Assembly: GCF_012427705.1 (NCBI RefSeq)
Contig: NZ_CP048602.1
Location: 3,658,001-3,722,000 of the forward strand
Source of the DNA: Vreelandella piezotolerans
GTDB taxonomy: Bacteria; Pseudomonadota; Gammaproteobacteria; Pseudomonadales; Halomonadaceae
Length of the DNA stretch: 64,000 bases
Direction of reading: 5' to 3'
Within the stretch, counting starts at the first letter, position 1, and each line of letters starts with the position of its first letter. A program made the position numbers and the translations under genes. Below are positions 18,629 to 42,597 of this stretch, piece after piece. Below the pieces are notes generated by a model. The model was given only the letters and a program-made list of their open reading frames with translations. It made no database searches and was not told where the DNA came from.

Positions 18629-18673
18629 TGTCATTTCCAACAATTGTTGCGACTAAACAATAATTGCTGCGAC
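18629..18673 (+). repeat. Left end of the Tn7-like transposon
   Basis: The terminal 25 bp (18629-18653) differ from the inverted right terminus at only three positions. A second partial copy of the inner motif, AATTGCTGCGAC, lies at 18662-18673. Repeated AATTGnTGCGAC blocks fit TnsB binding sites. Confidence 0.85.
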
Positions 18674-18708
18674 AATCTCTATGTTGAGTTTACATAGAGT
18701 GCGCCTTT

Positions 18709-20478
18709 GTGACCGTTTCTCTTAAACAATCCAGAACCTTTAGCTTCCATGATGGCACCCTAAAAAACGAGGCAGAGCGCTTGGTCGTTTGGTGGTACGG
18801 GCCTATATTTAAGAACAATCGCTTACGAAGCGTCCCTAAAATCCATATCTTCTTAAGAACCATCGACCATGAAAATAACTTAGGAGGCGTGATGAGACGT
18901 GAGACTGTCTTAACGCATCTTGGGCTATTGAGAATAGGGTCAGTATGGGAAAAGGGCGTGAGTAGCTCGCGTATTGCCTACGAGGAAAGAAAATTCTCCG
19001 TTTCTTTTTCTCCAGGCGGCTGGCGAATTGTCACCTTAGATGATTTACGACAATCAGGACGAAGCCTCTATACCGCTTTTCATGACTCGAACTACTTACC
19101 CCAGAAAAATCAGCACAAAACATACCTGATTGAATTTGACCTTCCAGATGGCAAACACTTGCTCATCCCTTGCACAGAATTTTTTATTCGCGTTTACGGC
19201 CGATCTTCTGAAATCAAGCGAGTGCTCGCCACTTACCCTTGGGAAGAAGTCAAAAAACGTCTTTATCGACCGCTTGATGCGCCTGCATCCCCAGGTACGT
19301 GGCCTGTCAAATTTACCTATCATGTTCATAAACACGATGCCATTTTGCTCGCGCATATGTTGTACGATCCGTATGCCAAGCGCGCTGCAAAATATATATA
19401 TTCACAATTTGAAACCAGCTCCACGCCAGATGAGATGCTTTTAAAAGCCACCCCATGGTTTCAAGGCAGCGGGGAAATCTCTGTTTCTGGCGTTCCAATT
19501 GATGGTGGCAACACATTCCTAGGCTTGCAGATATTAGGCTGTACGCAGCCCGATGGTGCCACGATCCACCGCGAAAGAGAGAAGTCAACGACAGTACCAG
19601 CCACCGATGGCGATGATGCTCCCACTCAATTTCCCTATCATCAGCTTCAAGACATCCCCGATGTCATTGACCTGACGGATGATGAAGAGCCCGACCATGG
19701 CTCTTCTTGGCTAGACCTTCCTGAGGACGAATTCGTTATTTTAGGTAAGCCTCGCGCCGTCTTGGATAAACGATATACTCGAAAAAATGTGCCCGATACA
19801 CGAGGCGTCCCCGTTCCGGGTGACGAAACTATTTTCTCCACTGGGGAGCCGCATGGATCAGGAAAAGGGGTCGGACAGGCCTCTATTCATGCTCCTATTA
19901 CACTGGAATCACAGGGCTTTCTACGTGATATGTGGAATGCGCTTCTCTATTTGCAATCGGCCTATCCCGAAACGATTCGTGGCGTTAGCTGGTTTACCTT
20001 TGAAGACGGCTTTAGCACTTCCCCCGACCCTCGGTTGATCAGCCTCGAACCTTTCGAAATAGACGAGGAGGTGGAAACGTCAGTCGCTAATTGGGTTTAC
20101 ATTGATACTCAGACCAAGGTACCTCGCGGGGTGCTCGTCGTTCGGGTGCATGTGTTAGATCAAACGCTCTATCTCATGGAGATCCAACGACGCCCTCCAA
20201 AACCCAGAGCTGGCGGTAGCGAGGAGGCATCCAAGCCTCCTTCCTATAAAGGTTTAGTCTTCACGCTGAGCCACCAAGGCAGCTTCGAGCAGTGGTTACG
20301 CCAAGTGCTGTCTAACGTGCGGCACGTAGAAGGTGTTGTCCAAAAACTAGTTGGTCACTGCCCAGGATTCGCCGATACGTTCAAGCACCCTAAATCCAAA
20401 AAGGAACAGATACCCTGCGAAGCCTCTGTGTTAAATGCTTTTAGCAAGGTCAGTATTGGTCGCAGTGACTTAGCATAG
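18709..20478 (+). CDS. Large protein at the left end of the transposon; possible TnsE-like targeting protein
   Basis: I do not firmly recognise this 589-residue protein. It has no membrane segment or signal peptide. An acidic linker near residues 315-335 (DVIDLTDDEEPDHG) separates two folded parts. The layout recalls Tn7 TnsE: a beta-rich N half, an acidic/basic linker, and a C-terminal domain where a V-x-V-x-LxLxEI strand pair is followed by a Trp-containing helix (SFEQWLRQVL) and an HPK motif, which TnsE also has in that order. Gene position, inward from the transposon end, supports a transposition role, but in Tn7 tnsE is beside tnsABCD whereas here it is 16 kb away. A restriction or defence cargo protein is the main alternative. 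It starts with GTG at 18709. Confidence 0.45.
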   Translation: MTVSLKQSRTFSFHDGTLKNEAERLVVWWYGPIFKNNRLRSVPKIHIFLRTIDHENNLGGVMRRETVLTHLGLLRIGSVWEKGVSSSRIAYEERKFSVSFSPGGWRIVTLDDLRQSGRSLYTAFHDSNYLPQKNQHKTYLIEFDLPDGKHLLIPCTEFFIRVYGRSSEIKRVLATYPWEEVKKRLYRPLDAPASPGTWPVKFTYHVHKHDAILLAHMLYDPYAKRAAKYIYSQFETSSTPDEMLLKATPWFQGSGEISVSGVPIDGGNTFLGLQILGCTQPDGATIHREREKSTTVPATDGDDAPTQFPYHQLQDIPDVIDLTDDEEPDHGSSWLDLPEDEFVILGKPRAVLDKRYTRKNVPDTRGVPVPGDETIFSTGEPHGSGKGVGQASIHAPITLESQGFLRDMWNALLYLQSAYPETIRGVSWFTFEDGFSTSPDPRLISLEPFEIDEEVETSVANWVYIDTQTKVPRGVLVVRVHVLDQTLYLMEIQRRPPKPRAGGSEEASKPPSYKGLVFTLSHQGSFEQWLRQVLSNVRHVEGVVQKLVGHCPGFADTFKHPKSKKEQIPCEASVLNAFSKVSIGRSDLA

Positions 20479-20523
20479 GTACTATTTGCCACCTTTATGA
20501 GTAGCGGTGTCTGTTTTGTCGCT

Positions 20524-20560: not shown

Positions 20561-20588
20561 CTGACGAAGAGCCGATACGGCCATCCCT

Positions 20589-21084
20589 TCAGTGGCGGGC
20601 GAGGATCTTCGCTGCGATGGGCGAAGTGATCATTTGAATCACGGCAAAAAAAGCGGCTGGAATCGCGATCTCTGATGGCAAGCCGGAAACAGCGACAAAC
20701 GCTGCAGCGATGCTGAATTCCTTTTTACTGACCGTGAAAAGATAGGTAATCACCTCTTTGCGATCAGAGGTGAGTAACCGTGAGGACATACCTACCAGGT
20801 ACCCAATCAAATTGAGGCACAGGGCCGCGCCCGCAATCACAAACGCATACCAGCCATAGCCAATGATCGTGGTGGCATTCGGCCCGACCACGGCGAGTAG
20901 GATCAGCAGATACAGAATCGACCCTATCCCTGCATACGCTGAATCATGCCGTGCAAAGAAAGCCGAGAACTTTGTACGCAAGCTGACCCCAATCACGGTA
21001 GGAAGAAGCACGATTAGTGTTAATTCAAGAATAATTGATCCAAGCGGCACGTCTAACTGAAGGCCGGTGAGCCATAAAAACAGG
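20589..21084 (-). pseudogene. Bile acid:sodium symporter family gene, 3' part (interrupted)
   Basis: The C-terminal half of a BASS/SBF-family membrane transporter: LWLTGLQLDVPLG, ILELTLIVLLPTVIGV and the later helices, ending KILARH. Its N-terminal half is at 26218-26650. The ISL3-type transposon 21085-26217 split it; excising the element with one 8-bp copy joins ...VPFLF to LWLTGLQ... in frame, giving 306 residues, the usual family length. An internal ATG at 21050 could start a fragment but would lack half the helices. The former substrate is unknown. Confidence 0.9.
21077..21084. repeat. 8-bp target duplication AAAACAGG, left copy
   Basis: Identical to 26218-26225 and directly abuts the GGGTATCCGG end. 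Eight base pairs is the ISL3-family duplication length. Confidence 0.93.
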
Positions 21085-21180
21085 GGGTATCCGGATTATC
21101 TGGTTGGTATGCGAGAGAGAAAGGTGGCCGACAAACTCAACCCACAACGGATTAGCTGGTTGATGGCTCGCTCAGTACGC

Positions 21181-21315
21181 TCACTTGCTAGAGAGCAGAT
21201 ATTTCACCAAACAGGCGATGCCCAGGACCAGCAGCAATAGTAGGGCAATTCCGATCACTGGCATTATCCAGCCCATCGCCCCCATCATCCCGCAATCGGG
21301 TAGTGTCGTGTTCAT
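21181..21315 (-). CDS. Small single-pass membrane protein at the end of the mer operon
   Basis: This 44-residue ORF encodes a Met-rich N terminus (DCGMMGAMGWIMP) followed by one hydrophobic helix (VIGIALLLLLVLGIACLV) and KYLLSSK. It starts 82 bp after the merA stop and GGGAG precedes the ATG. The Cys and Met residues before the helix could touch metal, but no function is known. It resembles small ORFs often found downstream of metal operons. Confidence 0.6.
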   Translation of the reverse strand: MNTTLPDCGMMGAMGWIMPVIGIALLLLLVLGIACLVKYLLSSK

Positions 21316-21396
21316 CGTGACAGAGCTCCCTGTGGTGTCCATGCCCAAAACCCGTGGTGCCGCCGCCCAGTGGCACCACGGTCGCGCTCATATCGT

Positions 21397-23278
<1,882 letters not shown>

Positions 23279-23351
23279 GCTTATTCCTTCACCGTGGCGG
23301 GCAAGCTCGTAAACAACTCACCCGATGACCGCGATGTGCAGCTGCTTGATG

Positions 23352-23605
23352 TCACTCAGGGGGCGTATTCCTTGATTTGATAGAGCCGTTGTCACAACAG
23401 GCGTCGAACTGCTTCTTACGCCAAATCGCATAAATGGTCAGGCCGATGAAGAAGGCCAGGGCCGGCAATAACACAACGTCGAGATAGCCCGTCAGCCCCG
23501 CCAGGCCCACCGTGCCAAGCAGGATCACCAGGATCGGCGTAAAGACAATGCCACCAGGACGGTGCCGATCACGCTCACGCGCAGCAGGGGCTTGGGATTC
23601 TTCAT
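23352..23605 (-). pseudogene. merF: merF pseudogene with a 4-bp deletion at the first Cys pair
   Basis: The frame begins MKNPKPLLRVSVIGTVLVAL and then shifts near 23545. In the other frame it continues with FTPILVILLGTVGLAG, the second helix and DACCDNGS to a stop at 23352. Aligning with normal MerF (VALCCFTP), four bases are missing and both codons of the first Cys pair are lost. The product would end after 26 residues. Confidence 0.88.
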
Positions 23606-23607
23606 GA

Positions 23608-23904
23608 TCACTCTCGATCCGCTTGCGAGGATGTCGGGGTTGATGGATACCCAGCGTTGATGGTGGCCTCGGTCAATGCCTCCACCGACGTTCGGGCGTC
23701 GTCAAAGGTGACCACGGCCTCGAGATCCGCGTAGCTCACGTCGACTTGCGAGACGCCGTCCACCTTGTTGAGGGCGGCCTTGACGGTGATCGGGCAGGCG
23801 GCACAGGTCATGCCCGGCACCGACAGCGTCACGGTCTGCAGGGCCGCTAAGGCGGGCGTGCTGAGCAGGGCGAGTAGCGCGATGAAGGCGAAACGAGCTT
23901 TCAT
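23608..23904 (-). CDS. merP: Periplasmic mercury-binding protein
   Basis: This 98-residue protein has a signal peptide (cleavage near ALA-AL) and a single heavy-metal-associated domain with GMTCAAC (Cys34/Cys37) that binds Hg2+ and passes it to MerT. Length is usual for MerP (91 residues) plus a short polar tail. It follows merT by 14 bp. Confidence 0.95.
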   Translation of the reverse strand: MKARFAFIALLALLSTPALAALQTVTLSVPGMTCAACPITVKAALNKVDGVSQVDVSYADLEAVVTFDDARTSVEALTEATINAGYPSTPTSSQADRE

Positions 23905-23917
23905 GGTAGATCTCCTT

Positions 23918-24268
23918 TTAATAGAACAGGGGCAAGATGTAGGGGAATACCAGGGCGATTAGCACCAGCAGCGATACGAGCCAGAAGATCGCCTTGTAGC
24001 CCGTCCTGACCCGTGGCACGGCACACACCTCTCCCGGCTGGCACTTTTCCACTGGCCGAAAGACGCGACGCCAGGCGAAGAACATCGCCACCAGCGCGAC
24101 GCCGATAAAGAGCGGGCGATAGGGCTCCAACGCCGCCAGATTGCTGATCCAGGCGCCGGAAACGCCCAGCGTGATCAGCACCAGCGGGCCGAGGCAACAC
24201 GCCGAGGCCAGGAGGGCCGCGACTCCTCCGGCGGCCAGGGGCCCTCGCCCCGTTTTAGATGTCCGCAT
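23918..24268 (-). CDS. merT: Mercuric transport protein MerT
   Basis: This 116-residue inner-membrane protein has three hydrophobic helices. The vicinal Cys24/Cys25 (ASACCLGPL) lies in the first helix and a second Cys pair (CQPGEVC) in the cytosolic loop. It is the first gene of the operon driven by the MerR-controlled promoter. ATG 24268 is chosen because longer starts extend into the merR gene. Confidence 0.93.
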   Translation of the reverse strand: MRTSKTGRGPLAAGGVAALLASACCLGPLVLITLGVSGAWISNLAALEPYRPLFIGVALVAMFFAWRRVFRPVEKCQPGEVCAVPRVRTGYKAIFWLVSLLVLIALVFPYILPLFY

Positions 24269-24305
24269 TGACGATTCTCCTTTCGGGATGGGGGGAGCTA
24301 CGATA

Positions 24306-24336
24306 AGGTTACTTCCGTAGCTTGGTACGGAGTCAA
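24306..24336 (-). promoter_or_regulatory. MerR-controlled mer operon promoter and operator
   Basis: On the minus strand: -35 TTGACT (24336-24331), a 19-bp spacer holding the dyad CCGTAC...CTACGG, then -10 TAACCT (24311-24306). The over-long spacer and dyad are diagnostic of MerR-type promoters, which are untwisted by the metal-bound regulator. Confidence 0.9.
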
Positions 24337-24341
24337 GCATC

Positions 24342-24788
24342 ATGAAGAGACATGCAGATAAAGTGGCGGACACCATGACCATTGGCGGCCTGGCCAAGGC
24401 GGCCGGCGTCAATGTCGAGACAATCCGCTATTACCAGCGACGAGGGCTATTATCGGAGCCCGAACGCCCTCCCGGAGGTATTCGACGCTATAGTGCCGCC
24501 GATATCGACAGGTTGACGTTCGTGAAAACGGCGCAGCAGCTGGGCTTTAGTCTGGATGAGATCAGTGACCTACTTCGGCTGGAAGATGGCGCCCACTGTC
24601 AAGAAGCCAGTGCTCTCGCAGAGCACAAGTTAGGGGACGTTCGCGAGAAGATCGACAGGCTTGAAAGAATTGAGAAGGTGCTGAGCGAAATGGTCGACAG
24701 ATGCCATGCACAACAAGGCAATATCACTTGCCCGCTAATTGCGTCATTGCATGAAGGGCTCAGAGAAGCAGAAGACCCAAGGGAGTAA
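24342..24788 (+). CDS. merR: Hg(II)-responsive transcriptional regulator MerR
   Basis: This 148-residue protein has an N-terminal winged HTH ([26 protein letters not shown]) and the three Hg ligands Cys86, Cys121 and Cys130. Their spacing is identical to Cys82/117/126 of Tn501 MerR, with an offset of four N-terminal residues. It is divergent from merT and shares the operator at 24306-24336. A second start at Met12 would give the classical N terminus. Confidence 0.93.
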
Positions 24789-24866
24789 CTCACCTTCAGT
24801 TCGTTGAAAACAACGCGGTCAAAGAGTCGCGATCATCTATGGACCATGTCGACAAGGAAAGTTTGC

Positions 24867-26168
24867 ATGACTAGCTTGCCTGACAACATCCTTCACCTTC
24901 CCGAGTACCACGTCCTAGGCACCAAGATGGAAGAGCATGATCTCCACTACCAGGTCGAAGCTCCTGAGCCTCTAGCTTGCGAGGAATGCGGCGTTGAGAG
25001 TGAGTTTGTCAGGTTCGGCAAGCGCGATGTGGCCTATCGCGACCTACCCATCCACGGAAAGCGGGTCACCCTCTGGGTGGTCCGTCGCCGCTACACCTGC
25101 CGGGCGTGTGGAAGGACGTTCCGGCCAGCTCTTCCGGAAATGGTAGACGATCACCGCATGACGCGGAGGCTTTACAACCACGTCGAGAAGGAAGCCTTCA
25201 ATCACCCCTACGCCTACGTGGCTGATACCACGGGCCTCGACGAGAAGACTGTCCGCGAGATATTCAAGAAGAAGGCTGAGTTCCTGGCAGCCTGGCATCG
25301 TTTCGAGACACCCCGCTGCCTGGGGATCGACGAGCTGTACCTGAACCGCCGCTACCGCTGCATCCTGACCAACCTGGAGGAGCGTACCCTACTGGACCTG
25401 CTGCCCGGTCGCCAGCAGGACGCGGTGACGAGGCGCCTCATGAGCATGACCGAGCGCCACCAGGTCGAGATCGTCAGCATGGATATGTGGAAACCCTACC
25501 GCCGTGCTGTCCAGGCGGTACTGCCGCAGGCTCGCATTGTGGTCGATAAGTTCCATGTGGTGCGGATGGCCAACGAAGCCCTGGAGAAGGTGCGTAAGGG
25601 ACTCAGGAAGGATCTGAAGCCAAACCAGCGGCGGACCCTCAAGGGCGATAGGAAGATCCTGCTGAAGCGTGCCCACGACGTTTCAGATCGCGAGCAGCTT
25701 ATCATGGAGACATGGACAGGGGCCTTCCCTCAGCTCCTGGCGGCCTACGAGCACAAGGAGCGGTTCTACCACATCTGGGACAGCACCACCCGGCGTGATG
25801 CCGAAAAGGCGCTGGCCCGCTGGATTGACGACATTCCACAGGGGCAGAAAGAGGTGTGGAAGGATCTCGTCAGCGCCGTCAGCGGATGGCGCGAGGAGGT
25901 GCTGGCCTACTTCGAAACCGACACCCCAATCACCAACGCCTTCACGGAGTCGATCAATCGGCTGGCCAAGGACAAGAACCGCGATGGCCGGGGCTACTCA
26001 TTCGAGGTGATGCGGGCCCGGATGCTCTACACCACCAAGCACAAGAAGAAGGTGCCGCAGATCAAGGAATCCCCCTTCCTGGGCAAGGCCACCATGACCT
26101 ACAGCATGGGTCTTCCCGAGCCTGAGAAAAACTACGGCGTCGATCTATCAACCTTCTGGGAGAGTTAA
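24867..26168 (+). CDS. tnpA: ISL3 family transposase
   Basis: This 433-residue transposase has an N-terminal zinc-binding HTH region (CEECGVE...YTCRACGRTFR), helix-turn-helix and the DDE catalytic core (CLGIDELYLNRRY; IVSMDMWKPYRRAV; NAFTESINRLAKDKNRDGRGY). These are the conserved segments of ISL3 transposases. ATG 24867 follows AAGGAAA; in-frame starts at 24846 and 24804 are possible. It ends 49 bp before the right terminal repeat and appears intact, so the mer unit may still be mobile. Confidence 0.92.
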   Translation: MTSLPDNILHLPEYHVLGTKMEEHDLHYQVEAPEPLACEECGVESEFVRFGKRDVAYRDLPIHGKRVTLWVVRRRYTCRACGRTFRPALPEMVDDHRMTRRLYNHVEKEAFNHPYAYVADTTGLDEKTVREIFKKKAEFLAAWHRFETPRCLGIDELYLNRRYRCILTNLEERTLLDLLPGRQQDAVTRRLMSMTERHQVEIVSMDMWKPYRRAVQAVLPQARIVVDKFHVVRMANEALEKVRKGLRKDLKPNQRRTLKGDRKILLKRAHDVSDREQLIMETWTGAFPQLLAAYEHKERFYHIWDSTTRRDAEKALARWIDDIPQGQKEVWKDLVSAVSGWREEVLAYFETDTPITNAFTESINRLAKDKNRDGRGYSFEVMRARMLYTTKHKKKVPQIKESPFLGKATMTYSMGLPEPEKNYGVDLSTFWES

Positions 26169-26203
26169 GGGTTCGAAGGAGCAAGGGGGCTCCATCTACC
26201 ACT

Positions 26204-26225
26204 TAATCCGGATACCCAAAACAGG
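26204..26225. repeat. Right terminal repeat of the mer transposon with 8-bp duplication
   Basis: TAATCCGGATACCC (26204-26217) is the exact inverse of the left end, and AAAACAGG (26218-26225) is the second duplication copy. Confidence 0.92.
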
Positions 26226-26650
26226 AAGGGAACAATAAACGGACATAACGCGGTGTTGACTGCGTTGAAAACAGCGGCAAGCGCCACATTGCCTTTTGCC
26301 ATCAGTACCAAAAGAGGAGAGGACACATCTGTCGGCAGCGTGCCGAGCAAGGTTTGGCCAGCAGCCAGCGGGCCGCTTCCAAAAAATAGACGGCCCGTTA
26401 GCCACCCGGCAATCGACATAGGCCCATAGACCAGCCCCAATGCCAACAACTGCCGTGACGGCTTTCGGAACACGATGCGCACTGCATGCGCATCGAATGT
26501 GAGGCTGATAATCAACATCAGTAATGCCAGTAATGGCCCAATCGCGAACTTAAGCATTATTCCGGTGGCCGGAAAGAGTAAGCCTCCCCCCGCGACGACG
26601 ATTACAAACCAGACAAGGTGCGCCTCGACAAAATAAATGAATCTACCCAT
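26218..26650 (-). pseudogene. Bile acid:sodium symporter family gene, 5' part (interrupted)
   Basis: The N-terminal half of the transporter whose C-terminal half is at 20589-21084. It starts MGRFIYFVEAHLVWFV, contains about four membrane helices and the GTLPTDVSSPLLV segment that resembles the sodium/substrate-site helix of this family, and runs to CPFIVPFLF. It then enters the transposon for a further 17 codons. It is divergent from the CDF gene. It may once have belonged to the metal or organic-anion cargo; its substrate is unknown. Confidence 0.88.
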
Positions 26651-29550: not shown

Positions 29551-29661
29551 CCACTCGTGCTTAACAACGTTGCATGGGGGTTAGTAACGTGAACGTGCGC
29601 TTGTCTCGTTATGGAACCCAAGCCGTGTAATCACTCATCTATCACAACACAGGTAATCGGT

Positions 29662-30931: not shown

Positions 30932-30953
30932 GGTAAAACTCCTTACGCAGGGC

Positions 30954-30984: not shown

Positions 30985-31017
30985 TCAAAACCATAGCTCA
31001 TTGGGAGAAGAGGCACC

Positions 31018-33204: not shown

Positions 33205-33704
33205 GAACAGCGCCAAACGATAGCCCTTCACGTCGCTGGCCATGGTTCACATTAGCTTGCGTGATGGCTCTAGCCGATCAACTGGTCAAGGAAATTGTGC
33301 ATGCCCAGATGTCGTTTGGCCAAGTCATTCCGCTAACGCCGTTTTTTAACTGGGTTTATACCGGGAACACAGGAGCCGCTTTCAGCTTTCTCGCAGAAGC
33401 AGGGGGTTGGCAGCGCTACCTCTTTCTTGGTTTAGCGTTGGTGGTGGTCGTCGTATTGGTTGTGCAGCTATGCAAACCCCTGTCGCGCTTGGAGGCCTGT
33501 GCGTACAGCCTGATTCTTGGCGGCGCGCTCGGTAATACTGTTGATCGCTTAGCGCGAGGGTACGTCGTCGACTATCTGGACATTTACTGGGGCGAATGGC
33601 ATTGGCCCGCCTTTAACATGGCCGATATCGCGCTATTTGCCGGTGTATTGATGTTCGCGGTGGCGTTATGGCGTGAAAGTCCTGCTTTTAAGCGCTCTGA
33701 GTAA
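33201..33704 (+). CDS. lspA: Lipoprotein signal peptidase (signal peptidase II), island copy
   Basis: This 167-residue inner-membrane aspartyl protease has four helices. The catalytic aspartates are likely Asp124 (YVVDYLD) and Asp142 (FNMADIALFAG), and the conserved GNTVDRL lies before the first. It cuts the signal of prolipoproteins after lipidation. Being translationally coupled to a metal ATPase (ATGA) in a transposon, it is an accessory copy; lspA genes beside czcD/cadA genes are known in mobile elements such as ISPpu12. Confidence 0.92.
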   Translation: MRTAPNDSPSRRWPWFTLACVMALADQLVKEIVHAQMSFGQVIPLTPFFNWVYTGNTGAAFSFLAEAGGWQRYLFLGLALVVVVVLVVQLCKPLSRLEACAYSLILGGALGNTVDRLARGYVVDYLDIYWGEWHWPAFNMADIALFAGVLMFAVALWRESPAFKRSE

Positions 33705-33708
33705 CGCT

Positions 33709-35241
33709 ATGGATGTGGTCGATAAAGATAAAGAATATACGCTTTTTGCTGGGCGCTCCTCACCAATAGTCGATTGCGTTGTAGCGCTCGCCGCTGGGGT
33801 GCTGACCACCTTGAGTGCCGCCCCCTTTTCCCTATGGTGGCTTGGCCCAGTGAGCGTGGCACTGGTCTATTGGAGAATAGCGTCGCTAACGCCCGCCATG
33901 GCCACCCTGCGTGGGTGGTGCTATGGGGTAGGCCTGTTCGGTTCAGGCACGTCGTGGGTCTTCGTTGCTATTCACGATTTCAGTGGCACCGGGGCCTTGG
34001 TGGCGATGCTCCTCACCACTCTTTTTGTCAGCGTCCTGGCGCTCTTCTTTGCAGTCCCCTTTGGGCTCTATCGACGCATCACGGGGCCACGGTTCGCCTT
34101 TCTTAGCTTTGCCGGTATGTGGGTGGTGAGCGAATGGCTACGCACTTGGATGCTCACCGGCTTTCCCTGGTTATTGCTGGGCACCTCTCAGATTGATTCT
34201 CCACTAGCCCCATGGGCGCCCGTTGGTGGTGTGTACTTGCTGTCACTCATGACCGCGCTGACAGGTACGTTAGGGGTAGAGGTACTGCGTCGCCGCTGGA
34301 GTTTCCTTGTCCCAATGGCCGCCTTGTGGATCGTTCCATTCCTATTGCCCGCCCAATGGACAACCCCGGCTGGCAAGCCCATCCGGGTGGCATTGCTGCA
34401 AGGGAATCTTGACCAGCGCATTAAGTGGACTGCCCAAGGGCAGCGCGAAGCGATCAGTATCTACACGACGATGACACGGGAGCAAGCAAGGGATATCGAT
34501 CTCATCGTTTGGCCTGAGGCAGCCCTTCCCATGCTTGAGCAGGAAGCACAGCAAATACTTGAGCAAGTAGCGTCCGACCTGGGGCCTGACACCGCCTTGT
34601 TGACCGGCATTTTGCAACGCGACAGTGAAGGGCGCTCTTATAACAGCGTCATAGGGCTAAATGATGTGCAGGGCGAATACCAGAAGGCGCACTTGGTGCC
34701 CTTTGGCGAGTATTTGCCATTCCAAAGTCTCCTCGCTGGCACCCTTGCTTTTTTCGACTTGCCAGTACCTCGCCTGACCCCAGGGTCAGGCGAACAGGCT
34801 CCGTTACACGTGGCTGGAGCCACCATTGGCAATGCCATTTGTTACGAAATCATTTTTGCCGACCATGTCGCCCAACAGGCGCGTAATGCCGAGCTGCTAT
34901 TAACGGTTTCCAACGATACGTGGTTTGGGCGCTCCATTGGCCCACACCAACATCTTCAAATGGCGCGTCTACGTGCCTTAGAAAATGGTCGTCACCTACT
35001 TCGAGCTACCAGTAATGGCGTGACGGCCATCATCGATTCACAAGGTCACGTCACAGCCCGTGCCCCACAGTTTGAACAGGCCAGTTTAACGGGCGAGGTG
35101 ACCCCGATGCAGGGCCTAACTCCTTTCACACGCACCGGTAGTGGCCCCGCTTGGATACTCGCTGCGGTGCTGACACTGCTCGGGTTACAACTGAACTTAT
35201 CTCGATCAAAAAACGACGCATTAGATGAAAAAGGAACCTAG
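33709..35241 (+). CDS. lnt: Apolipoprotein N-acyltransferase, island copy
   Basis: This 510-residue inner-membrane enzyme adds the third acyl chain to mature lipoproteins. About six N-terminal helices are followed by a nitrilase-like domain with the Glu-Lys-Cys triad: Glu in VWPEAALPM, Lys in EYQKAHLVPFGEYLPF, Cys in GNAICYEIIF. A final helix lies near the end. I choose ATG 33709, 5 bp after lspA; an in-frame GTG at 33673 overlaps lspA. With lspA it gives the island two of the three lipoprotein maturation steps. Confidence 0.92.
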   Translation: MDVVDKDKEYTLFAGRSSPIVDCVVALAAGVLTTLSAAPFSLWWLGPVSVALVYWRIASLTPAMATLRGWCYGVGLFGSGTSWVFVAIHDFSGTGALVAMLLTTLFVSVLALFFAVPFGLYRRITGPRFAFLSFAGMWVVSEWLRTWMLTGFPWLLLGTSQIDSPLAPWAPVGGVYLLSLMTALTGTLGVEVLRRRWSFLVPMAALWIVPFLLPAQWTTPAGKPIRVALLQGNLDQRIKWTAQGQREAISIYTTMTREQARDIDLIVWPEAALPMLEQEAQQILEQVASDLGPDTALLTGILQRDSEGRSYNSVIGLNDVQGEYQKAHLVPFGEYLPFQSLLAGTLAFFDLPVPRLTPGSGEQAPLHVAGATIGNAICYEIIFADHVAQQARNAELLLTVSNDTWFGRSIGPHQHLQMARLRALENGRHLLRATSNGVTAIIDSQGHVTARAPQFEQASLTGEVTPMQGLTPFTRTGSGPAWILAAVLTLLGLQLNLSRSKNDALDEKGT

Positions 35242-35243
35242 CG

Positions 35244-36338
35244 ATGCTCTTGGCAAAGAACGCAGCAATACTTAAGAGATTCCTCCCATGGCCAATGCAG
35301 ATCGGCTTCATCGTGAGTGTGATGGTTTCGTTTCTGGCATGGCTCCCTGTCGCCATGGCGGCACAACCTTCCACTGCCCAGGAGACGGAATGGCCCAAGG
35401 GGCATTACCCGCTACCTGAGGAAGGCAATATTATCGGAGAGGCTGACACCTTCATCGTGAAGAATTACGAGGATACTCTGATTGATATTGCCAGACGTCA
35501 CAACCTTGGCTACCAGGAGATTGTACGTGCTAACCCAGAGGTCAGTATTTGGGTGCCCGGAGTGGGTACTGAAGTAACCATTCCAGGACGCTTCATCCTG
35601 CCGAATGTCGAGCGTACTGGGGTCGTCATCAATATCGCCGAGCTGCGGCTTTACTACTACCCAGATGTCAAAACCGGTGAGACACCGCGCGTTGAGACCT
35701 ATCCTATCGGCATCGGTCGCGAAGGGTTTGATACACCCCTTGGTGTGACCGAGACTACCATGAACATTAAAAACCCCGCATGGTACCCGCCTGAGTCGGT
35801 AAAACGTGAAGCGGAAGCACGCGGCGAAACCGCACCAAGCGTTGTACCGCCCGGCCCCGATAACCCGCTAGGAGACCATGCCATCATCCTAGGCTTCGAT
35901 GGCTATTTGATTCACGGCACCAACCAGCCCGATGGCATTGGCATGCGCGCAAGCCGAGGTTGTATCCGCATGTTACCCAAAGACATCGAATCTATATTTG
36001 ACCGCATTCCACCCGGCACCCAAGTCAACATCATCAATCAGCCGATCAAGATAGGTTGGGAAGGCGGTCAGCCGCTGATTCAAGCCTTTCCGCCGCTTGG
36101 AGAAGAAGAGCACAGTATGACCGCACTCACAGAGACCATGACACGCCTTAACCAATACAATGTCGATAACGTAAACCTCGATTACGAGCAGCTCAGCGAT
36201 GTCCTGTCACTCTCTAACGGGCTTATAACCCCACTACATCCAAAGCAGGAACAGGAGCCACAGCGCCACAGCCCAGAAGAGAAGGCTATCAAGGGCATTT
36301 ATGAAGACCTGGTTTTGACGTCATCTCAACGGTCATGA
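35244..36338 (+). CDS. L,D-transpeptidase (YkuD) with LysM-like domain
   Basis: This 364-residue exported protein has an N-terminal hydrophobic signal (IGFIVSVMVSFLAWLPVAMA). A LysM-like segment around residues 70-115 (DTFIVKNYEDTLIDIARRHNLGYQEIVRANP) precedes a YkuD catalytic domain ending with HGTNQPDGIGMRASRGCIRM, where His and the Cys of SRGCIR are catalytic. It matches the ErfK/YbiS/YcfS/YnhG group that attaches Braun lipoprotein to peptidoglycan or makes 3-3 crosslinks. It is the last gene of the cadA-lspA-lnt operon, with only 2 bp after lnt. Confidence 0.9.
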   Translation: MLLAKNAAILKRFLPWPMQIGFIVSVMVSFLAWLPVAMAAQPSTAQETEWPKGHYPLPEEGNIIGEADTFIVKNYEDTLIDIARRHNLGYQEIVRANPEVSIWVPGVGTEVTIPGRFILPNVERTGVVINIAELRLYYYPDVKTGETPRVETYPIGIGREGFDTPLGVTETTMNIKNPAWYPPESVKREAEARGETAPSVVPPGPDNPLGDHAIILGFDGYLIHGTNQPDGIGMRASRGCIRMLPKDIESIFDRIPPGTQVNIINQPIKIGWEGGQPLIQAFPPLGEEEHSMTALTETMTRLNQYNVDNVNLDYEQLSDVLSLSNGLITPLHPKQEQEPQRHSPEEKAIKGIYEDLVLTSSQRS

Positions 36339-36464: not shown

Positions 36465-36758
36465 TTAGCACTCAATATCCAGAGGCAGCCAGTAGGTAAC
36501 GCCACCCACTACCACCTGTATCCCGTCTGTCGTCCGCTCTACGGTCTGTTGTCGAAGCATTTTCTGCGTTAATTTTGTGTCATGGAAATACTCCATGGCA
36601 GCAACGATCCATGCCTCCCTCCAGGCCTCTCCTTGATCAGCACACCGGGCCATCGTCATCAGGGTGCGGGCTAGTGTTTCTTTTCGCCGCTTTCTTGCCC
36701 GTTTTACATCCACCCGAGGAGCCAACGTGGTGGCATGTTGGCGATTTAAGAAATTAGT
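36465..36758 (-). CDS. C-terminal part of the split zinc-ribbon transposition gene (-1 frame)
   Basis: A 97-codon open stretch that continues the preceding gene in the -1 frame. The joined peptide reads VTGL/TNFLNRQHATTLAPRVD..., which looks like one continuous domain. It has no ribosome-binding site of its own; a TTG at 36725 is the only internal start candidate. It ends VTYWLPLDIEC. It is either the tail of a gene broken by a one-base loss or the product of a programmed -1 frameshift at 36758-36764. In position it corresponds to the small genes after tniD in AbaR-type elements. Confidence 0.55.
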   Translation of the reverse strand, partial: TNFLNRQHATTLAPRVDVKRARKRRKETLARTLMTMARCADQGEAWREAWIVAAMEYFHDTKLTQKMLRQQTVERTTDGIQVVVGGVTYWLPLDIEC

Positions 36759-36764
36759 AAACCC
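36710..36764 (-). promoter_or_regulatory. Candidate -1 frameshift signal (slippery heptamer plus pseudoknot)
   Basis: The heptamer GGGTTTA (36764-36758) is in the X XXY YYZ phase of the upstream frame. Fifteen nt later come GCCAAC (36742-36737) and GTTGGC (36726-36721), forming a stem. Loop bases CCACC (36733-36729) can pair with GGTGG (36714-36710) downstream, which is H-type pseudoknot topology. The spacer is longer than the usual 5-9 nt. Confidence 0.35.
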
Positions 36765-37933
36765 GTGACCGAGGCTGCTTGTCCGGGCACCGCATGCAAA
36801 TAGTTGTCCACATCGCCCTGTTGAGGCAGTCGCTGCCCCTCCCGGTCAGTAGCGAGTAGCAATGCGGCTGCCGCTCTTAGTGCAAGTCGTGCGGAGGTGT
36901 GGGACGTTTTGCCCGCCTCTATACGGGTTTCCAATTGCAGCCAATAGGCTTGCAGCACTTGGTCTGATAGCGAAGCGAACGGCATAGAACTGAGACACGC
37001 TTGAATACGTCTTTTCTCTGAGTCGATCCGCTTTGCTTGGTGATCCGGCTCTACCCCTTGCTCTTCATGCAACCATCGCATGGGAAGCCTCACACGCCGC
37101 AAGCCCTCCGCCCCGAAGTGATGAAGTAGCTCCGAATAGCTCGGTATCCGTGACCATGCCTGGTCGAGCTCAAGGAAGAACGAGAAGAAATGATTGATCT
37201 TGAGGGCAGCCTTATGCGGCCCAGTGATACGAATCAGCCATTCACCAAATTCCCCAAAGGCCTCACTTAACGCTTTGGTAGTGATACCGGCTTGGCCAAT
37301 GGTGATGCGTTTACGGCATGTTCGCGTCCAATAGCAGGGCTCACAGGCATCACCTCGACCCGCTGGCATGGGATTACCACACGATGGGCAGGCAATTTCC
37401 CCTTGCTCATTACAGGCTTTGCACAACGCATCCCCGTTGGGTGCCACCACCAATAAACGATGTCGACGACATGCAGAACAGGTACCGTGGTCTGCTGTCG
37501 AACAGCGTGGACATAAGCGATGATCATGCCCCGTACGCGCCACTCGGGTAAGACGTTGAGATGCTTTCCCACACGCCTCGCAGGGCTCTGGTTCTTTGAA
37601 ATAGGGAGCGCAGGCGATACAGACAGGGCCGTAGGGAGTGACCTTGCCGATGTTGTAGTCTGAACTGGCTTTTCCACATCGTGCACACGGTTTGTCAACG
37701 TTGCACTGACGACAGACGGCGTCTGGGTCATTCTTAGGCAGACGGGCTAACTCACCACATCGTGGGCACATCCGCCGCTTAAACACACGAGCATAGCAAG
37801 TTGAACAGTAGCCGTGCCCTTTATGGCGTCGCCACAATTTGGAGACTTCTCGGCCACACTCATCGCAGTCGACCGTTTGGTGTTGATTCAAGAGGTTGGC
37901 TCCGCTTTCATTCTGCGTTTTAAACGCGCCCAT
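36746..37933 (-). CDS. Multi-zinc-ribbon protein of the transposition module (frame split at 3' end)
   Basis: This 395-residue protein has an N-terminal half with at least seven CxxC-type ribbons (CDECGRE, CPRCGEL, CRQCNVD-CARCGKA, CEACGKA, CPRCSTAD-CSACRRH, CPSCGNP). The C-terminal half contains a helical segment like the SAM-like core-binding domain of tyrosine recombinases, without catalytic residues in view. It overlaps tniQ by 46 bp and ends at TAA 36746-36748, four codons after a G GGT TTA heptamer. The -1 frame adds 97 codons (total 489). Its role in target choice or DNA binding is inferred from location only. Confidence 0.6.
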   Translation of the reverse strand: MGAFKTQNESGANLLNQHQTVDCDECGREVSKLWRRHKGHGYCSTCYARVFKRRMCPRCGELARLPKNDPDAVCRQCNVDKPCARCGKASSDYNIGKVTPYGPVCIACAPYFKEPEPCEACGKASQRLTRVARTGHDHRLCPRCSTADHGTCSACRRHRLLVVAPNGDALCKACNEQGEIACPSCGNPMPAGRGDACEPCYWTRTCRKRITIGQAGITTKALSEAFGEFGEWLIRITGPHKAALKINHFFSFFLELDQAWSRIPSYSELLHHFGAEGLRRVRLPMRWLHEEQGVEPDHQAKRIDSEKRRIQACLSSMPFASLSDQVLQAYWLQLETRIEAGKTSHTSARLALRAAAALLLATDREGQRLPQQGDVDNYLHAVPGQAASVTGLLIS

Positions 37934-38976
37934 GAGGCTCTAACAGCGCGTTCCGACATGGGGCGACAAGCCGGGGGAACACGGCGGCGATGCGGCCCAT
38001 GAGGGTGGTGAGATAACCGTGATAGCAGCGGCAACAACACAACGGGGGGCGACCTTCGGGGATCATGAAGCGCGCTCGTTTTGACATTGCACGCGACCAG
38101 AACGCTGAACGTTTCTTCAAGGCCCATACTGAGCAAGCGTTCCAACGCTACCAATAAGGCACTACGCTCGCTGACAGCCAGCAGCTCAAACGCCAGGCCA
38201 GACACAGGCATTCGGCAATCCGTAACCGAAATGCCCAATGAAAGAAGCGCATCGGCCAGGGGTGACACAGGCCGCCGACTTGCACGCCGTATAACGCCAA
38301 TAAAAAAGGCCACCATAGAAAACCAATCGGCGGGTGCGATAGAGGCCTGCCTAAACGTCACCTTATCCTGTTCTAACACACGATCAGCCATCACTTGAAC
38401 ACTGAACGCTTCAGGTAAAGGCGACGTGCATACCGCCTTTCTAAAATCGTTATGACACCGGCTGCATTGAGCTAAATGTTGATCTTCCGCTGTCAGGCGA
38501 TGGGGCTCTATAGGGGCCTTGCATGCTGGGCACTCATCTACCAGCTGCACCCCATGAAAGCGGCACCCAGTGTGCCAAGCGAATCGCCAGTGCCGGCGCA
38601 AGTAGGGGGTTGAGTCCTCTGCCAAGCACAACGTGCATACCTGTTGTCCTCCATGGCGGGTTCGATTTCGGCTGCCGAGTGCCAACAACCAGGGCCAAGT
38701 CCGGGTTTCCGGTAACGAGTAACCGACCACTTTCTCACAATCGTCCCGCATCCCCGCTTTCTGAAACTTAGCGGAAGATATCCCCGAGGCATTCACTAAT
38801 GGGCGCATTCTTGCGAGGGGTATTTCCCTATCAATGTCCCTCGTCCATATACGCCATGTTGGCCAAATAGCCCCGGTGAGCGACAAAGGATCACACCCCT
38901 GTCGCAACGCCGCCCGAACGAGCCATGATGAAAGGGACTCCTCAGGCAGCAGGGGCACACTCAGCGCCCAGGTCAT
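37888..38976 (-). CDS. tniQ: TniQ family transposition protein (TnsD-like targeting subunit)
   Basis: This 362-residue protein begins with the TniQ signature (PEESLSSWLVRAALRQG). It has the zinc-binding block QVCTLCLAEDSTPYLRRHW...TGCRFHGVQLVDECPACK between residues about 112-158. In Tn7-family elements this protein recognises the target and recruits TnsC. Given the insertion in comM it is the natural candidate for reading a comM sequence. It overlaps tnsC by 1 bp and the zinc-ribbon gene by 46 bp. Confidence 0.9.
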   Translation of the reverse strand: MTWALSVPLLPEESLSSWLVRAALRQGCDPLSLTGAIWPTWRIWTRDIDREIPLARMRPLVNASGISSAKFQKAGMRDDCEKVVGYSLPETRTWPWLLALGSRNRTRHGGQQVCTLCLAEDSTPYLRRHWRFAWHTGCRFHGVQLVDECPACKAPIEPHRLTAEDQHLAQCSRCHNDFRKAVCTSPLPEAFSVQVMADRVLEQDKVTFRQASIAPADWFSMVAFFIGVIRRASRRPVSPLADALLSLGISVTDCRMPVSGLAFELLAVSERSALLVALERLLSMGLEETFSVLVACNVKTSALHDPRRSPPVVLLPLLSRLSHHPHGPHRRRVPPACRPMSERAVRASWARLKRRMKAEPTS

Positions 38977-39860
38977 TACAGCATCACTTCCCTAATGCCA
39001 CGGGTGGGCCGCACCCATGATTTACTCTGAATAATTTTCTCATCGATGCACTCAGCTCCAGACAAAATAGCGGCATTTGCACACTCAATCAGCAGCCGGT
39101 GCAGGTCACCCAAATTACCGCCAGAAATCGCGTGGAGCTGGGTCGCCAATTGGGGCTCATGCAGTTGGGAAGGATGTTTGAGAGGTAATATCTTCTCAAA
39201 GCCAGCGAGCAGCTTCTGAAACTCCTGATTGAGCTCCCACTTTGGTAACGCGACCACATCAAAGCGACTCGCATGCTGTGGGTCTGAATGCAGCACACGC
39301 ACAGCATCTTGCGTCCCCACACCAACGATGGGAATCATTAGCTCATTGCATAAAAGCTTAATGGCATTCATCGTTTCGCGCTGCTTAACAGCACCACCGG
39401 TTAACAGAGAGTGAAACTCATCGATGATCAGTAAGCGCGTATGGCAAGCACGCAGTTGATGAATCACCTGGTAGCGCAGCTTGGGAACAGGATCTGTAGG
39501 CCGGTAGGGAGCCCAGAAACTCTCTAGCACTGCGATATACAGACTTTTCTCATCGGCACTCGGGGGAGCCTGAGTGACAACAACAGGCTTCACGGGCTCT
39601 ACGTCTTCATTCACGTAGCCTTCACCGTACTGCTTACGAAACCGTTGAACGATGGTTGTCTTTCCGTTGTTGGAGTCACCCACGAGCAAGAGGTTAGGCA
39701 TACGAGGACGACTGGGCTTCTCCATCAACCCACGCATGACCTCAATGACACGATTGGCCAATGGATAGCCCAACCAGCGCGGTTGATCCATAAACTCCAT
39801 TCGCTCTTTAGCGGACAGCCCCAAGACGTGACGAAGATCAGGATGAAGGTGTGTGCTCAT
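38976..39860 (-). CDS. tnsC: TnsC/TniB-like AAA+ ATPase of the transposon
   Basis: This 294-residue AAA+ ATPase has Walker A GDSNNGKT at residues 61-68 and Walker B LLIIDEFH with Asp147/Glu148. Size and motifs match TniB of Tn402/Tn6022-type elements more than the 555-residue TnsC of Tn7. It links the target protein with the transposase and gives target immunity. It overlaps tnsB by 4 bp. Confidence 0.92.
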   Translation of the reverse strand: MSTHLHPDLRHVLGLSAKERMEFMDQPRWLGYPLANRVIEVMRGLMEKPSRPRMPNLLLVGDSNNGKTTIVQRFRKQYGEGYVNEDVEPVKPVVVTQAPPSADEKSLYIAVLESFWAPYRPTDPVPKLRYQVIHQLRACHTRLLIIDEFHSLLTGGAVKQRETMNAIKLLCNELMIPIVGVGTQDAVRVLHSDPQHASRFDVVALPKWELNQEFQKLLAGFEKILPLKHPSQLHEPQLATQLHAISGGNLGDLHRLLIECANAAILSGAECIDEKIIQSKSWVRPTRGIREVML

Positions 39861-41785
39861 GCTATGTCCCAGTTCACATCGATATCACCCGTTAAAAGAC
39901 CGTCCCCTTGAGCGGGTGTCTCTTTAGGGGCCGCAGTTGAGGGCGCATGTAAAAGGGGATCTGCAGGCGTCACCTTCTTCTCATGCTCTTTACGTCGTTG
40001 TGCCTGACGGCGACTTCGCTTAGTACGTGCTTGCGACTCCTCCACATGGGTTCGCAGCTCACTAATAGCGCGTAGAATTTCAGTCTCATTGACCGAGCTT
40101 CTTCCTTCCTGCCGAAGGCGCGCTTTAGCTTGGGCATACTCCCAAACACTCATCGAGGGGAGGGCAAGATTGGCAAAGGGCACGCGAAAATAGTGCCCGA
40201 GCTCCGGGTCTTTGAACCAAATGACACTAATGTCGCGAGGGTCGCGCCGGAAAACAAAGGTGCGTTTCTTGTCTGGCATGTCTGGATCTTTGGCATTGAT
40301 CCAAGGTCTTAGCGCTTCATCGTAATAGTTTATGCCATCGATGGTCACACCAAAGGTCTGGATCGTACGCTGAAAGCTGGGCAAAAAATCGAGCAATACA
40401 GAGAGCCTGTCAGCAGGCCTCGGCGCTAATCCCACTCCCTGCACATCCGCATTGCCAAACACACCAATTTCCCACTTTTTCATCGGCGACATACCAATCC
40501 CAGAATGAAGGCGCTGGTGGTAAACCTTGCAAATCAACGTCACCAGCCACTCTTCAAACTCGCTTTTCGTCATGGCCGCGTGCTTCTCTGGATCGTATCC
40601 CTCTTTCTCTTTAATGGAGGAGAAGGTCGTCCCAGGCAGGTTATGGATTTCCTTTAGAAGAGAGCCCAGTACCCGCTCAATGTGGCCACCATAACGAGGC
40701 TGCTTAACAGGCCGAAACTCAAGGTTGACCCCATAGGCTAGGCATGAGCGCCGAAACGTCTCAGAGCGAAAATCTGGGCCGTTATCGACATGAATCGTGG
40801 CGGGTGTGCCCCATACCGGCCACTCAGCCTCCACATTATGCAGTAGCAACCACTCATCTTTAGGAAGCATGGAGTGCGCCACACACATGCCGACAGATGT
40901 TTCAGAGGGCGGGTCAAACGACAAGTAATACCCCGTGACCATGCGAGTAAACACGTCCATGGCCAACGTAATCCATGGGCGACCAATCGGCTTGCGATAC
41001 ACGTCATCGACCAAAATAATATCGGCAGGCGTGTGGTCAATCTGCATAACGGCTAACGGATAGTCCGCATTGGGAAATTTTCCGGCAGCCGGCTGGAACT
41101 TGTTAATGGCTTTGTCTCTAAAACCATGGCCACGCAACCGGTCACGCTCTGGGATATCACGCAGACGAGCACGAACGGTACCAGGGCTCGGCGGGTCGAT
41201 GCGCCGTTCATGGCAGCGCCGCATGACTTCCTGTACCGCTTTTTGTGCGGACGGACGCTGCAGCGTCAAATACACCTCTTTGATGACTTCCTGAATCACT
41301 GCCTCGGCATGCGCGGGAATACGCGACTTTCCCTTCTTCCACCCTGGCTTTTGAGGAATCAATGCAAGCACCGAGCCCGTCGCTTTATACCGCTTCAACC
41401 AACGGTAGATCGTAGCCGTATCAACCCCCGTTTGTTTCGCACGCTCCTCCGCTGCATCCCGCCCCACCGTATGGCGATCCACCAAGGGCTTAATGATGGA
41501 AAAGCGATGCTCGGCCTCCCGCCAATCGGCATCCCCAATCTCGGACATATCCTGCTCAGGGGATACGGACCCGCTATTGAGAGGCGCTAGTTCTTTGATG
41601 CGAAGCGGGCAACTACGCCCGGACTCAACGGCAATGCCAATGACTGTCTCAAAATCGAGCACCTGGGAAATTCGGTAAACGGTGCCATCTTTCTGAACCT
41701 GCTCACCCACCATAATCTGCAAGTGTTGGCGTGTTTGGGCGACGCCGTTATTGGGTTCAGTTGCGCTGCCACGATGGTTATTCAT
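39857..41785 (-). CDS. tnsB: TnsB/TniA-like DDE transposase
   Basis: This 642-residue integrase-fold transposase has N-terminal HTH domains (TGVDTATIYRWLKRY region). The catalytic triad is Asp250 (MQIDHTPAD), Asp334 (IHVDNGPDF) and Glu370 (GGHIERVLG), with 35 residues between the last two. It cuts and joins the 3' ends and binds the repeated end sites. It overlaps tnsA by 8 bp and tnsC by 4 bp, forming one operon. Confidence 0.94.
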   Translation of the reverse strand: MNNHRGSATEPNNGVAQTRQHLQIMVGEQVQKDGTVYRISQVLDFETVIGIAVESGRSCPLRIKELAPLNSGSVSPEQDMSEIGDADWREAEHRFSIIKPLVDRHTVGRDAAEERAKQTGVDTATIYRWLKRYKATGSVLALIPQKPGWKKGKSRIPAHAEAVIQEVIKEVYLTLQRPSAQKAVQEVMRRCHERRIDPPSPGTVRARLRDIPERDRLRGHGFRDKAINKFQPAAGKFPNADYPLAVMQIDHTPADIILVDDVYRKPIGRPWITLAMDVFTRMVTGYYLSFDPPSETSVGMCVAHSMLPKDEWLLLHNVEAEWPVWGTPATIHVDNGPDFRSETFRRSCLAYGVNLEFRPVKQPRYGGHIERVLGSLLKEIHNLPGTTFSSIKEKEGYDPEKHAAMTKSEFEEWLVTLICKVYHQRLHSGIGMSPMKKWEIGVFGNADVQGVGLAPRPADRLSVLLDFLPSFQRTIQTFGVTIDGINYYDEALRPWINAKDPDMPDKKRTFVFRRDPRDISVIWFKDPELGHYFRVPFANLALPSMSVWEYAQAKARLRQEGRSSVNETEILRAISELRTHVEESQARTKRSRRQAQRRKEHEKKVTPADPLLHAPSTAAPKETPAQGDGLLTGDIDVNWDIA

Positions 41786-42473
41786 AATCGGGTACCCATA
41801 CCTCTGATAGAGGACTGAAGGATTGGGCCATATCGCAATCTAACTGCCGAGTCGCCAGTAGATGCCATAAATGCGCAATCCCCTCTGCCCGGTAAATATC
41901 GCCCATAAAGTGCCGAGAAAGCAGGTAATCCAAGGTCGCCACCCCCATTTCCCTCACCGTGTTGAGGACTGCCTGGCTTTCGACAGAAGGAAACACCATC
42001 CGTTTATAGCGCGCTAGGAAGGTAATGTTGTCCAAGGTCTTATCACGAATGCGGCTTTCATCATGAATGCGAAACGCCCAGCCCTCATTGTTGGCATGCC
42101 GTATCGCCGCCTTCCATTTAGGCGACCATTCACGCCAATGTGCTTGCCACTTTTCCCGTGGTTTGACCTCCACCAGGAGAGGTTTTGGGTAATCCCTGTA
42201 ATGACGGTTACCGAGACGGTAATAAACCAAATAGTCAGGTGTGTAGGTGTAGCGCCTACCGGTCACGGGATGATGAAACGGGATCTCGCACGGCTGGGAT
42301 ATCACACCAAGGACGCTCACATCAAAGTCAGCCTTGATGAGGAAATCACGTTCGAGCGTCGACTCGAACGCAATAGACTCCTCCCCGCGAAAGGCATAGT
42401 AGCCAGACACACTTCGTCGGGTAGGGCCGATTTTACGAACGGATGTAGGCAGTGGCATGGGCAGTCGCACCAA
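41778..42473 (-). CDS. tnsA: TnsA-like endonuclease
   Basis: This 231-residue protein has a restriction-endonuclease-like core. Likely catalytic residues are Glu41 (FESTLERDF), Asp80 (YTYTPDYLV) and Lys104 (LLVEVKPR). In Tn7 TnsA cuts the 5' ends and makes transposition cut-and-paste; its presence predicts clean excision rather than cointegrates. It starts 124 bp inside the right end, so its promoter must lie within that end. Confidence 0.92.
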   Translation of the reverse strand: MVRLPMPLPTSVRKIGPTRRSVSGYYAFRGEESIAFESTLERDFLIKADFDVSVLGVISQPCEIPFHHPVTGRRYTYTPDYLVYYRLGNRHYRDYPKPLLVEVKPREKWQAHWREWSPKWKAAIRHANNEGWAFRIHDESRIRDKTLDNITFLARYKRMVFPSVESQAVLNTVREMGVATLDYLLSRHFMGDIYRAEGIAHLWHLLATRQLDCDMAQSFSPLSEVWVPDYE

Positions 42474-42494
42474 ATGTTGAATAAAACAAGACCT

Positions 42495-42597
42495 GTCGCA
42501 TCAATTGCTATTAATTCTGTCGCACTCAATCCTGTACAGACTACCATAATAGCCCGATATTACGCCCTGAGGGTCGCATCAATTGCTGAAAATGACA
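42495..42597 (-). repeat. Right end of the Tn7-like transposon with three TnsB-type sites
   Basis: Three copies of a GTCGCA(T)CAATTGCT-type block lie at 42495-42509, 42519-42534 (degenerate) and 42573-42587, the last running into the terminal AAAATGACA. They are inverted relative to those at the left end. The asymmetry (two sites left, three right) is like other Tn7 relatives. Confidence 0.82.

Follow-up and report, generated by a model that had tools for sequence, protein, structure and literature searches.

A 64-kb stretch of the Vreelandella piezotolerans chromosome (contig NZ_CP048602.1, positions 3,658,001 to 3,722,000; hereafter the window, in whose coordinates features are given) contains a 23,969-bp element at 18629–42597 that interrupts comM. 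The element has exact ends, a 5-bp duplication, the gene row tnsA-tnsB-tnsC-tniQ-tnsF and a relative of tnsE, and its relatives occupy the same comM codon in the same orientation. It is very probably a Tn7-like transposon of the Tn6022 family, likely placed in comM by TnsABC, TniQ and TnsF, the last as target selector. We regard it as a well-supported new member of this known family in the Halomonas group. No paper with both Vreelandella and comM was found in the open-licence literature, a weak statement on novelty; one paper there mentions comM, Halomonas and Tn7, and Halomonas-group hosts may be among the 121 groups of Tn6022-family loci counted by Faure et al. (PMC10293859).

The insertion site and the element boundaries were as follows.

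17780–18628, plus strand: comM 5' part with the ChlI domain and Walker A (Pfam PF13541, N-terminal part of PF01078)
18624–18628: target-site duplication GGGGC, left copy (sequence)
18629–42597: Tn6022-family Tn7-like transposon, 23,969 bp (ends, duplication, alignment to relatives)
18629–18673, plus strand: left end with putative TnsB-site repeats at 18642–18653 and 18662–18673 (exact repeats)
42495–42597, minus strand: right end with putative TnsB-site repeats at 42495–42506 and 42573–42584 (exact repeats)
42598–42602: target-site duplication GGGGC, right copy (sequence)
42603–43262, plus strand: comM 3' part with Walker B and Mg_chelatase_C (C-terminal part of PF01078, PF13335)

The termini are TGTCATTT, starting at 18629, and AAATGACA, finishing at 42597, and over their outermost 25 bases the two ends agree at 22 positions. 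The repeat AATTGnTGCGAC has four exact matches in the window (18642, 18662, 42495 and 42573), all within the element ends, where about 0.03 would be expected by chance (11 fixed bases, equal base frequencies). At up to two mismatches there were 14 matches against about 20 expected, so only the exact matches are informative. Removal of the element with retention of one GGGGC joins the flanks into an open 502-codon comM. The left piece contains GPPGTGKT and the right piece VLFLDELPEF, which we take to be the Walker A and Walker B motifs of ComM, and the insertion point lies just upstream of the Walker B codons. ComM function in this host has probably been lost.

The initial annotation, made from the sequence alone, had described the inverted ends, the GGGGC duplication, the repeated end sites and the tnsA-tnsB-tnsC-tniQ row, all of which were borne out to the base, and the comM frame restored by removal and the separation of Walker A from Walker B were likewise found as described. 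It had called the transposon complete, which holds for the ends and backbone and fails for tnsF, which is frameshifted. Its backbone list was correct for the four genes named and had overlooked tnsF (36746–37933) and the tnsE-like gene (18709–20478). Since these two are present, the relation to Tn6022 is stronger than it had claimed.

The genes assigned to transposition and targeting were as follows.

41778–42473, minus strand: tnsA endonuclease (PF08722, PF08721)
39857–41785, minus strand: tnsB, DDE transposase (PF09299; NF033577 under its equivalog cut-off; PDB TnsB chains)
38976–39860, minus strand: tnsC, TniB/AAA (PF05621)
37888–38976, minus strand: tniQ (PF06527)
36746–37933, minus strand: tnsF, frameshifted after about residue 391 (homology to the TnsF of a second copy in the same genome)
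36465–36725, minus strand: tnsF C-terminal fragment in another frame (tblastn of the second copy's full-length TnsF, residues 391–485)
18709–20478, plus strand: tnsE-like gene, 589 aa, near the left end and opposite in strand to the tns operon (homologues; predicted fold)

The overlapping tnsA, tnsB, tnsC and tniQ genes lie head to tail as a predicted operon, and beyond tniQ the row continues into tnsF. All four, as well as the tnsE-like gene, are full length in the window copy. Because of its position, its overlap with tniQ (37888–37933), a zinc-ribbon match and homology of its product (38–39 % identity) to the protein encoded next to tniQ in Acinetobacter comM elements, the 395-codon gene beside tniQ is identified as tnsF. 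The zinc-ribbon match was the sole Pfam hit for this open reading frame (ORF) and lay below threshold, and an NCBIfam search of the ORF gave no match. The wider TnsF family comprised 256 protein matches among 7,993 candidates scored. According to Faure et al. (PMC10293859), TnsF consists of zinc fingers and, after them, a tyrosine-recombinase part that is inactive, and its gene lies next to tniQ and overlaps it. In the experiments reported there, insertion of Acinetobacter johnsonii Tn6022 into comM needed TnsF together with TnsA, TnsB, TnsC and TniQ.

The tnsE-like protein gave no match in Pfam and PDB sequence searches, including the PDB TnsE chains, and fold comparison was therefore applied. 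Its structure model had a mean pLDDT of 73, and the TnsE C-terminal domain accounted for the six best PDB fold matches and the eighth (5d17, 5d16 and 9d5l among the matches), the best at E 0.01 and probability 0.97. Homologues were found in Guyparkeria (39 % identical, adjoining the comM 5' half) and in two Acinetobacter loci (25–26 % identical); loci L058 and L081 have homologues beside the comM 5' half, and one protein-search homologue (P0169) has a name beginning 'TnsE C-terminal domain'. The fold thus gives moderate support to a divergent tnsE-like gene near the left end, and its position and strand agree with those described for the tnsE of Tn6022 (PMC10293859). In the gene-integrity comparison of relatives, several stretches end before the left end, and absence of TnsE there means that it was not covered.

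The occurrence of the insertion was surveyed in 82 genomes of the genus. comM was present in all 82 (joined 800-bp comM query), unbroken at the insertion position in 66 and split there in 16; one of the latter (G072) is a 71 %-complete genome that yielded the 3' half of comM alone and no tnsB. The initial annotation had looked to related strains for an empty comM with a single GGGGC. The 66 unbroken genomes agree with this expectation, and the four closest (90–91 % identity over the 800-bp query) have a single 5-mer that reads GCGGC instead. TnsB had a match at E ≤ 0.001 in 27/82 genomes, with identities from 100 % down to 26 %, and because of this lower limit not all 27 are taken to carry the Tn6022 family. 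Among the genus copies with the tnsA side in view (n=21), 15 abut the 3' half of comM, always in the same orientation, and six lie elsewhere. In one further genome (G063, locus L048), comM is unbroken at the insertion position and a partial second comM copy lies about 2 kb downstream, beyond a 431-codon ORF.

A further set comprised 41 loci with a TnsF alignment fetched from a species-representative collection, some from the same genomes as the genus set. tnsA was included in 36 loci, and at 30 of these, six of the seven Acinetobacter loci among them, the tnsA end adjoins the 3' half of comM. The junction fell at the same comM codon in 24 of these 30, and in the other six the end was either left unplaced by the script or placed elsewhere. 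The six loci without comM were from V. stevensii, V. hamiltonii, V. aquamarina, a Proteobacteria metagenome-assembled genome, an Acinetobacter plasmid and Pseudomonas poae.

Near-identical relatives were found both in and outside comM. The window element aligned to a copy in another species (G028) over 23,970 columns with 11 mismatches and one gap (99.95 % identity); this copy lies outside comM with the duplication CTCAA, and the comM of G028 holds a different copy. Relatives of 18.8 kb that lack the mercury-resistance (mer) genes are 98.8–99.8 % identical to the window over a shared 16.4 kb; the one in G077 occupies comM, and those in G004, G017 and G070 lie at other sites. In Halomonas halocynthiae, 16,119 bp at 99.94 % identity adjoin a comM 3' part that is 72 % identical over 383 bp, and because of this disparity the element appears likely to have moved between hosts recently. 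A constant site and orientation across species could also be produced by one old comM insertion, spread by homologous recombination or vertical descent without repeated targeting. Such a history is contradicted by the H. halocynthiae comparison, by near-identical copies at other sites with their own 5-bp duplications and by the 66 genomes in which the site is unbroken. We consider it very improbable, and a single old inherited insertion was rejected on the element versus comM identities and on the copies at other sites.

The six non-comM copies examined represent five distinct sites, as G017 and G070 share one. No comM-like motif was found in their 100-base right flanks, which ranked from 0.228 to 0.995 of 5,000 random window stretches when scored with a matrix from 16 comM flanks; two comM control flanks scored far above background, yet both were among the 16 used for the matrix. 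A second copy, likewise outside comM, is on the same chromosome as the window element (2,066,807–2,090,971; 24,165 bp; duplication TTAGT). Its TnsB is 95 % identical, its tnsF is full length and its tniQ has an in-frame stop. Next to it are another tniQ, csy3, csy4 and a gene whose second half matches Csy2, and tnsC- and tnsA-like genes lie about 25 kb beyond its other end:

G000:C1:2060404-2065381 (L004:4404-9381) and about 2116409-2121058 (L007:409-5058): type I-F CRISPR-associated transposon genes, with the second copy between them

From this gene content, the surroundings appear to be a type I-F CRISPR-associated transposon with a tnsB interrupted by an insertion sequence. No regular CRISPR array was found beside the cas genes in L004 1–4400 or 9381–10806, the stretches searched. 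The non-comM copies were compared for a terminus preference that would have supported TnsE: a dif-like site lies 166–190 kb from the second copy, and the G028 copy is nearer dnaA than its own dif-like site.

Two further relatives were noted. On plasmid pHAL1 (L057, NZ_CP130611.1), a decayed relative with a shortened tnsC and IS66 genes inside adjoins a plasmid conjugation gene cluster. In Halomonas sp. PA16-9 (L099, NZ_CP040452.1), a mer-less element at 97.4 % identity over 16.4 kb adjoins the comM 5' half, and no 3' half was present at the other end within the fetched stretch, reflecting either a rearrangement or an assembly fault.

The proposed mechanism is carried over from the published A. 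johnsonii element (PMC10293859). TnsF would bind comM around the Walker B codons, TniQ would bridge TnsF to TnsC, and TnsA and TnsB would move the element. Insertions outside comM would go via TnsE or another route. Selection would act on the metal genes as cargo, to which mer would have been added later by its own transposon.

Several observations weigh against this reading. Six of the 21 genus copies, including the most similar one, lie outside comM, which is therefore not the sole outcome. The TnsE fold match is modest, with none at E 0.001 or better and a pLDDT of 73. The tnsF frame is shifted in the window and also broken in G077, the gene is interrupted in G040, and the single gap in the window tnsF could itself be a sequencing error.

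The state of tnsF was compared across copies. The window tnsF of 395 codons is 90.6 % identical over residues 1–392 to the 486-aa TnsF of the second copy, residues 391–485 of which match the neighbouring 86-codon ORF in a different frame, so that the last fifth is out of frame. tnsF is full length in the 99.95 %-identical G028 copy, and the single alignment gap therefore falls in tnsF; since tnsF is intact in that copy, the frameshift would have arisen after insertion. Among the genus copies in comM (n=15), two (G032, G065) run into a contig end at tnsF; in the remaining 13, tnsF is broken in three (window, G077, G040) and open in ten, one of which (G011) was judged from a partial alignment. 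Loss of tnsF as a rule after comM insertion is thus unsupported. Of the six non-comM copies, five have an open tnsF and in the sixth it is mostly gone; G017 and G070, both with open tnsF, have a frameshifted tnsC, and G070 also has a stop in tnsA. In the G004 copy every transposition gene is full length.

These lesions bear on whether the window copy is still mobile. It may be a dead relic, immobile through the tnsF frameshift and the mer transposon in its cargo, to which we give somewhat less than an even chance. The frameshift severs the TnsF C-terminal part, where the contact with TniQ is placed in A. johnsonii Tn6022; omission of TnsF, or changes at the predicted contact, lowered transposition of that element (PMC10293859). 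Pointing the other way, tnsA, tnsB, tnsC, tniQ and tnsE are full length, the ends are in place, a full-length tnsF is available from the second copy about 1.6 Mb away, and the gap may be a sequencing error. Without the second copy's TnsF, the window copy is probably no longer able to choose comM. The lesions are in different genes, tnsF in the window copy and tniQ in the second, and it is possible that the two share proteins. As a tentative and rather doubtful joint proposal, the Halomonas-group Tn6022 family would use two routes, TnsF leading to comM and a second, most likely TnsE, leading to comM-unlike DNA, of which a plasmid and a type I-F CRISPR-associated transposon are examples, and copies in the same genome with complementary lesions could keep each other mobile.

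Like Tn7, the window element has a TnsABC core, a 5-bp duplication and, apparently, a second target pathway beside the site-specific one. Tn7 targets the end of glmS through TnsD and differs in this from the element in comM, and the similarity of the window TnsB to Tn7 TnsB is remote (60.5 bits). Tn6022 shares a clade with Tn5053 according to Benler et al. (PMC8649781). A close likeness in design is to A. johnsonii Tn6022, described with the same tnsA-B-C-tniQ-tnsF order, tniQ/tnsF overlap, opposite-strand tnsE, comM target and target-site duplication (PMC10293859); the window element differs in its cargo and its frameshifted tnsF. The Tsy transposon is likewise inserted in comM with use of a TnsF homologue and is a tyrosine recombinase element without Tn7 components (PMC10293859), whereas the window element has TnsABC.

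The AbaR/AbGRI islands of Acinetobacter baumannii also combine a Tn7-like backbone in comM with resistance cargo (PMC11472951), and differ from the window element in host group and in carrying antibiotic rather than metal cargo. With family and comM codon in common, the window element might be an AbaR/Tn6022 island that originated in Acinetobacter. The fetched Acinetobacter comM loci, among which A. johnsonii is not represented, are only 50–51 % identical in TnsB and 38–39 % in TnsF, and relatives at 78–100 % TnsB identity occur across the Halomonas-group genus and in Kushneria and Cobetia, making an Acinetobacter origin extremely improbable. The element is better read as a Halomonas-group member of the Tn6022 family.

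The cargo genes were annotated as follows.

20589–21050, minus strand: SBF-like transporter gene, C-terminal part (PF13593)
21085–26217: nested ISL3-type mercury transposon, 5,133 bp (14-bp inverted ends; 8-bp direct repeats)
21397–23139, minus strand: merA, mercury(II) reductase; the listed ORF starts upstream of the likely start (TIGR02053 above cut-off)
23608–23904, minus strand: merP-like, HMA domain (PF00403; merP named in related plasmid records)
23918–24412, minus strand: merT (PF02411)
24342–24788, plus strand: merR (PF13411, PF09278)
24804–26168, plus strand: ISL3 family transposase (PF01610; NF033550 above cut-off)
26165–26650, minus strand: SBF-like transporter gene, N-terminal part, split by the mer transposon (PF01758)
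26856–27770, plus strand: cation diffusion facilitator (PF01545)
27884–28561, plus strand: DsbA/thioredoxin-like (PF13462)
28558–29550, plus strand: M23 peptidase (PF01551)
29611–30444, plus strand: ZIP metal transporter (PF02535)
30473–30994, minus strand: MerR-family regulator (PF13411, PF09278)
31018–33204, plus strand: heavy-metal P-type ATPase, Zn/Cd/Pb type (TIGR01525, TIGR01512 above cut-off)
33075–33704, plus strand: signal peptidase II, lspA (PF01252)
33673–35241, plus strand: apolipoprotein N-acyltransferase, lnt (PF20154, PF00795)
35244–36338, plus strand: L,D-transpeptidase, YkuD (PF03734)

Metal resistance is predicted from this cargo. The Cd/Zn/Hg type given in the initial annotation is correct, and its treatment as one unit is not, since mer lies in its own ISL3-type transposon. 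ISL3-family insertion duplicates 8 bp, and the mer unit has an ISL3 transposase, inverted ends and 8-bp direct repeats AAAACAGG at 21077–21084 and 26218–26225. The 18.8-kb mer-less copies align without a break across the mer insertion point in the SBF-like gene, and because they are continuous without the insert, mer is a later nested addition and one unbroken 24-kb cargo was rejected. The unit also interrupts tnsF in G040. It recurs on a plasmid of Paracoccus albus (99.7 % identity) and in three plasmid records from Halomonas (97.5 % identity). A mer region of another kind, Tn3-type, has been reported in Halomonas (PMC3606827). No antibiotic-resistance domain was found among the element proteins scanned, and no Cas domain in the proteins scanned from 18629–42597, where short ORFs were scanned in part. 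Directly upstream of comM lies a YhaV-type toxin gene (PF11663) at 16751–17619, the start of which is overlapped by a 124-codon ORF on the same strand.

comM was also split at other positions in eight of the 82 genomes (G003, G007, G008, G026, G046, G055, G069 and G077). In all eight, Pfam identified a large serine recombinase beside one break, and these elements break comM at codons about 213–220, 318–335 and 337–340. Split comM was thus present in 23/82 genomes in total (16 and eight, with G077 shared), by two unrelated element classes. In other groups, too, comM is known to harbour mobile elements (PMC4774983, PMC11472951).

With these results the Tn6022 family that targets comM, best known from the resistance islands of Acinetobacter, is extended to the Halomonas group. 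Close relatives there span species and genera, and the cargo of the window element consists of metal genes instead of antibiotic ones. Copies found outside comM are natural insertion sites that bear on the proposed TnsE route. The frequency of split comM, 23/82, agrees with the idea, set out in PMC4774983 and PMC11472951, that mobile elements gain by blocking transformation.

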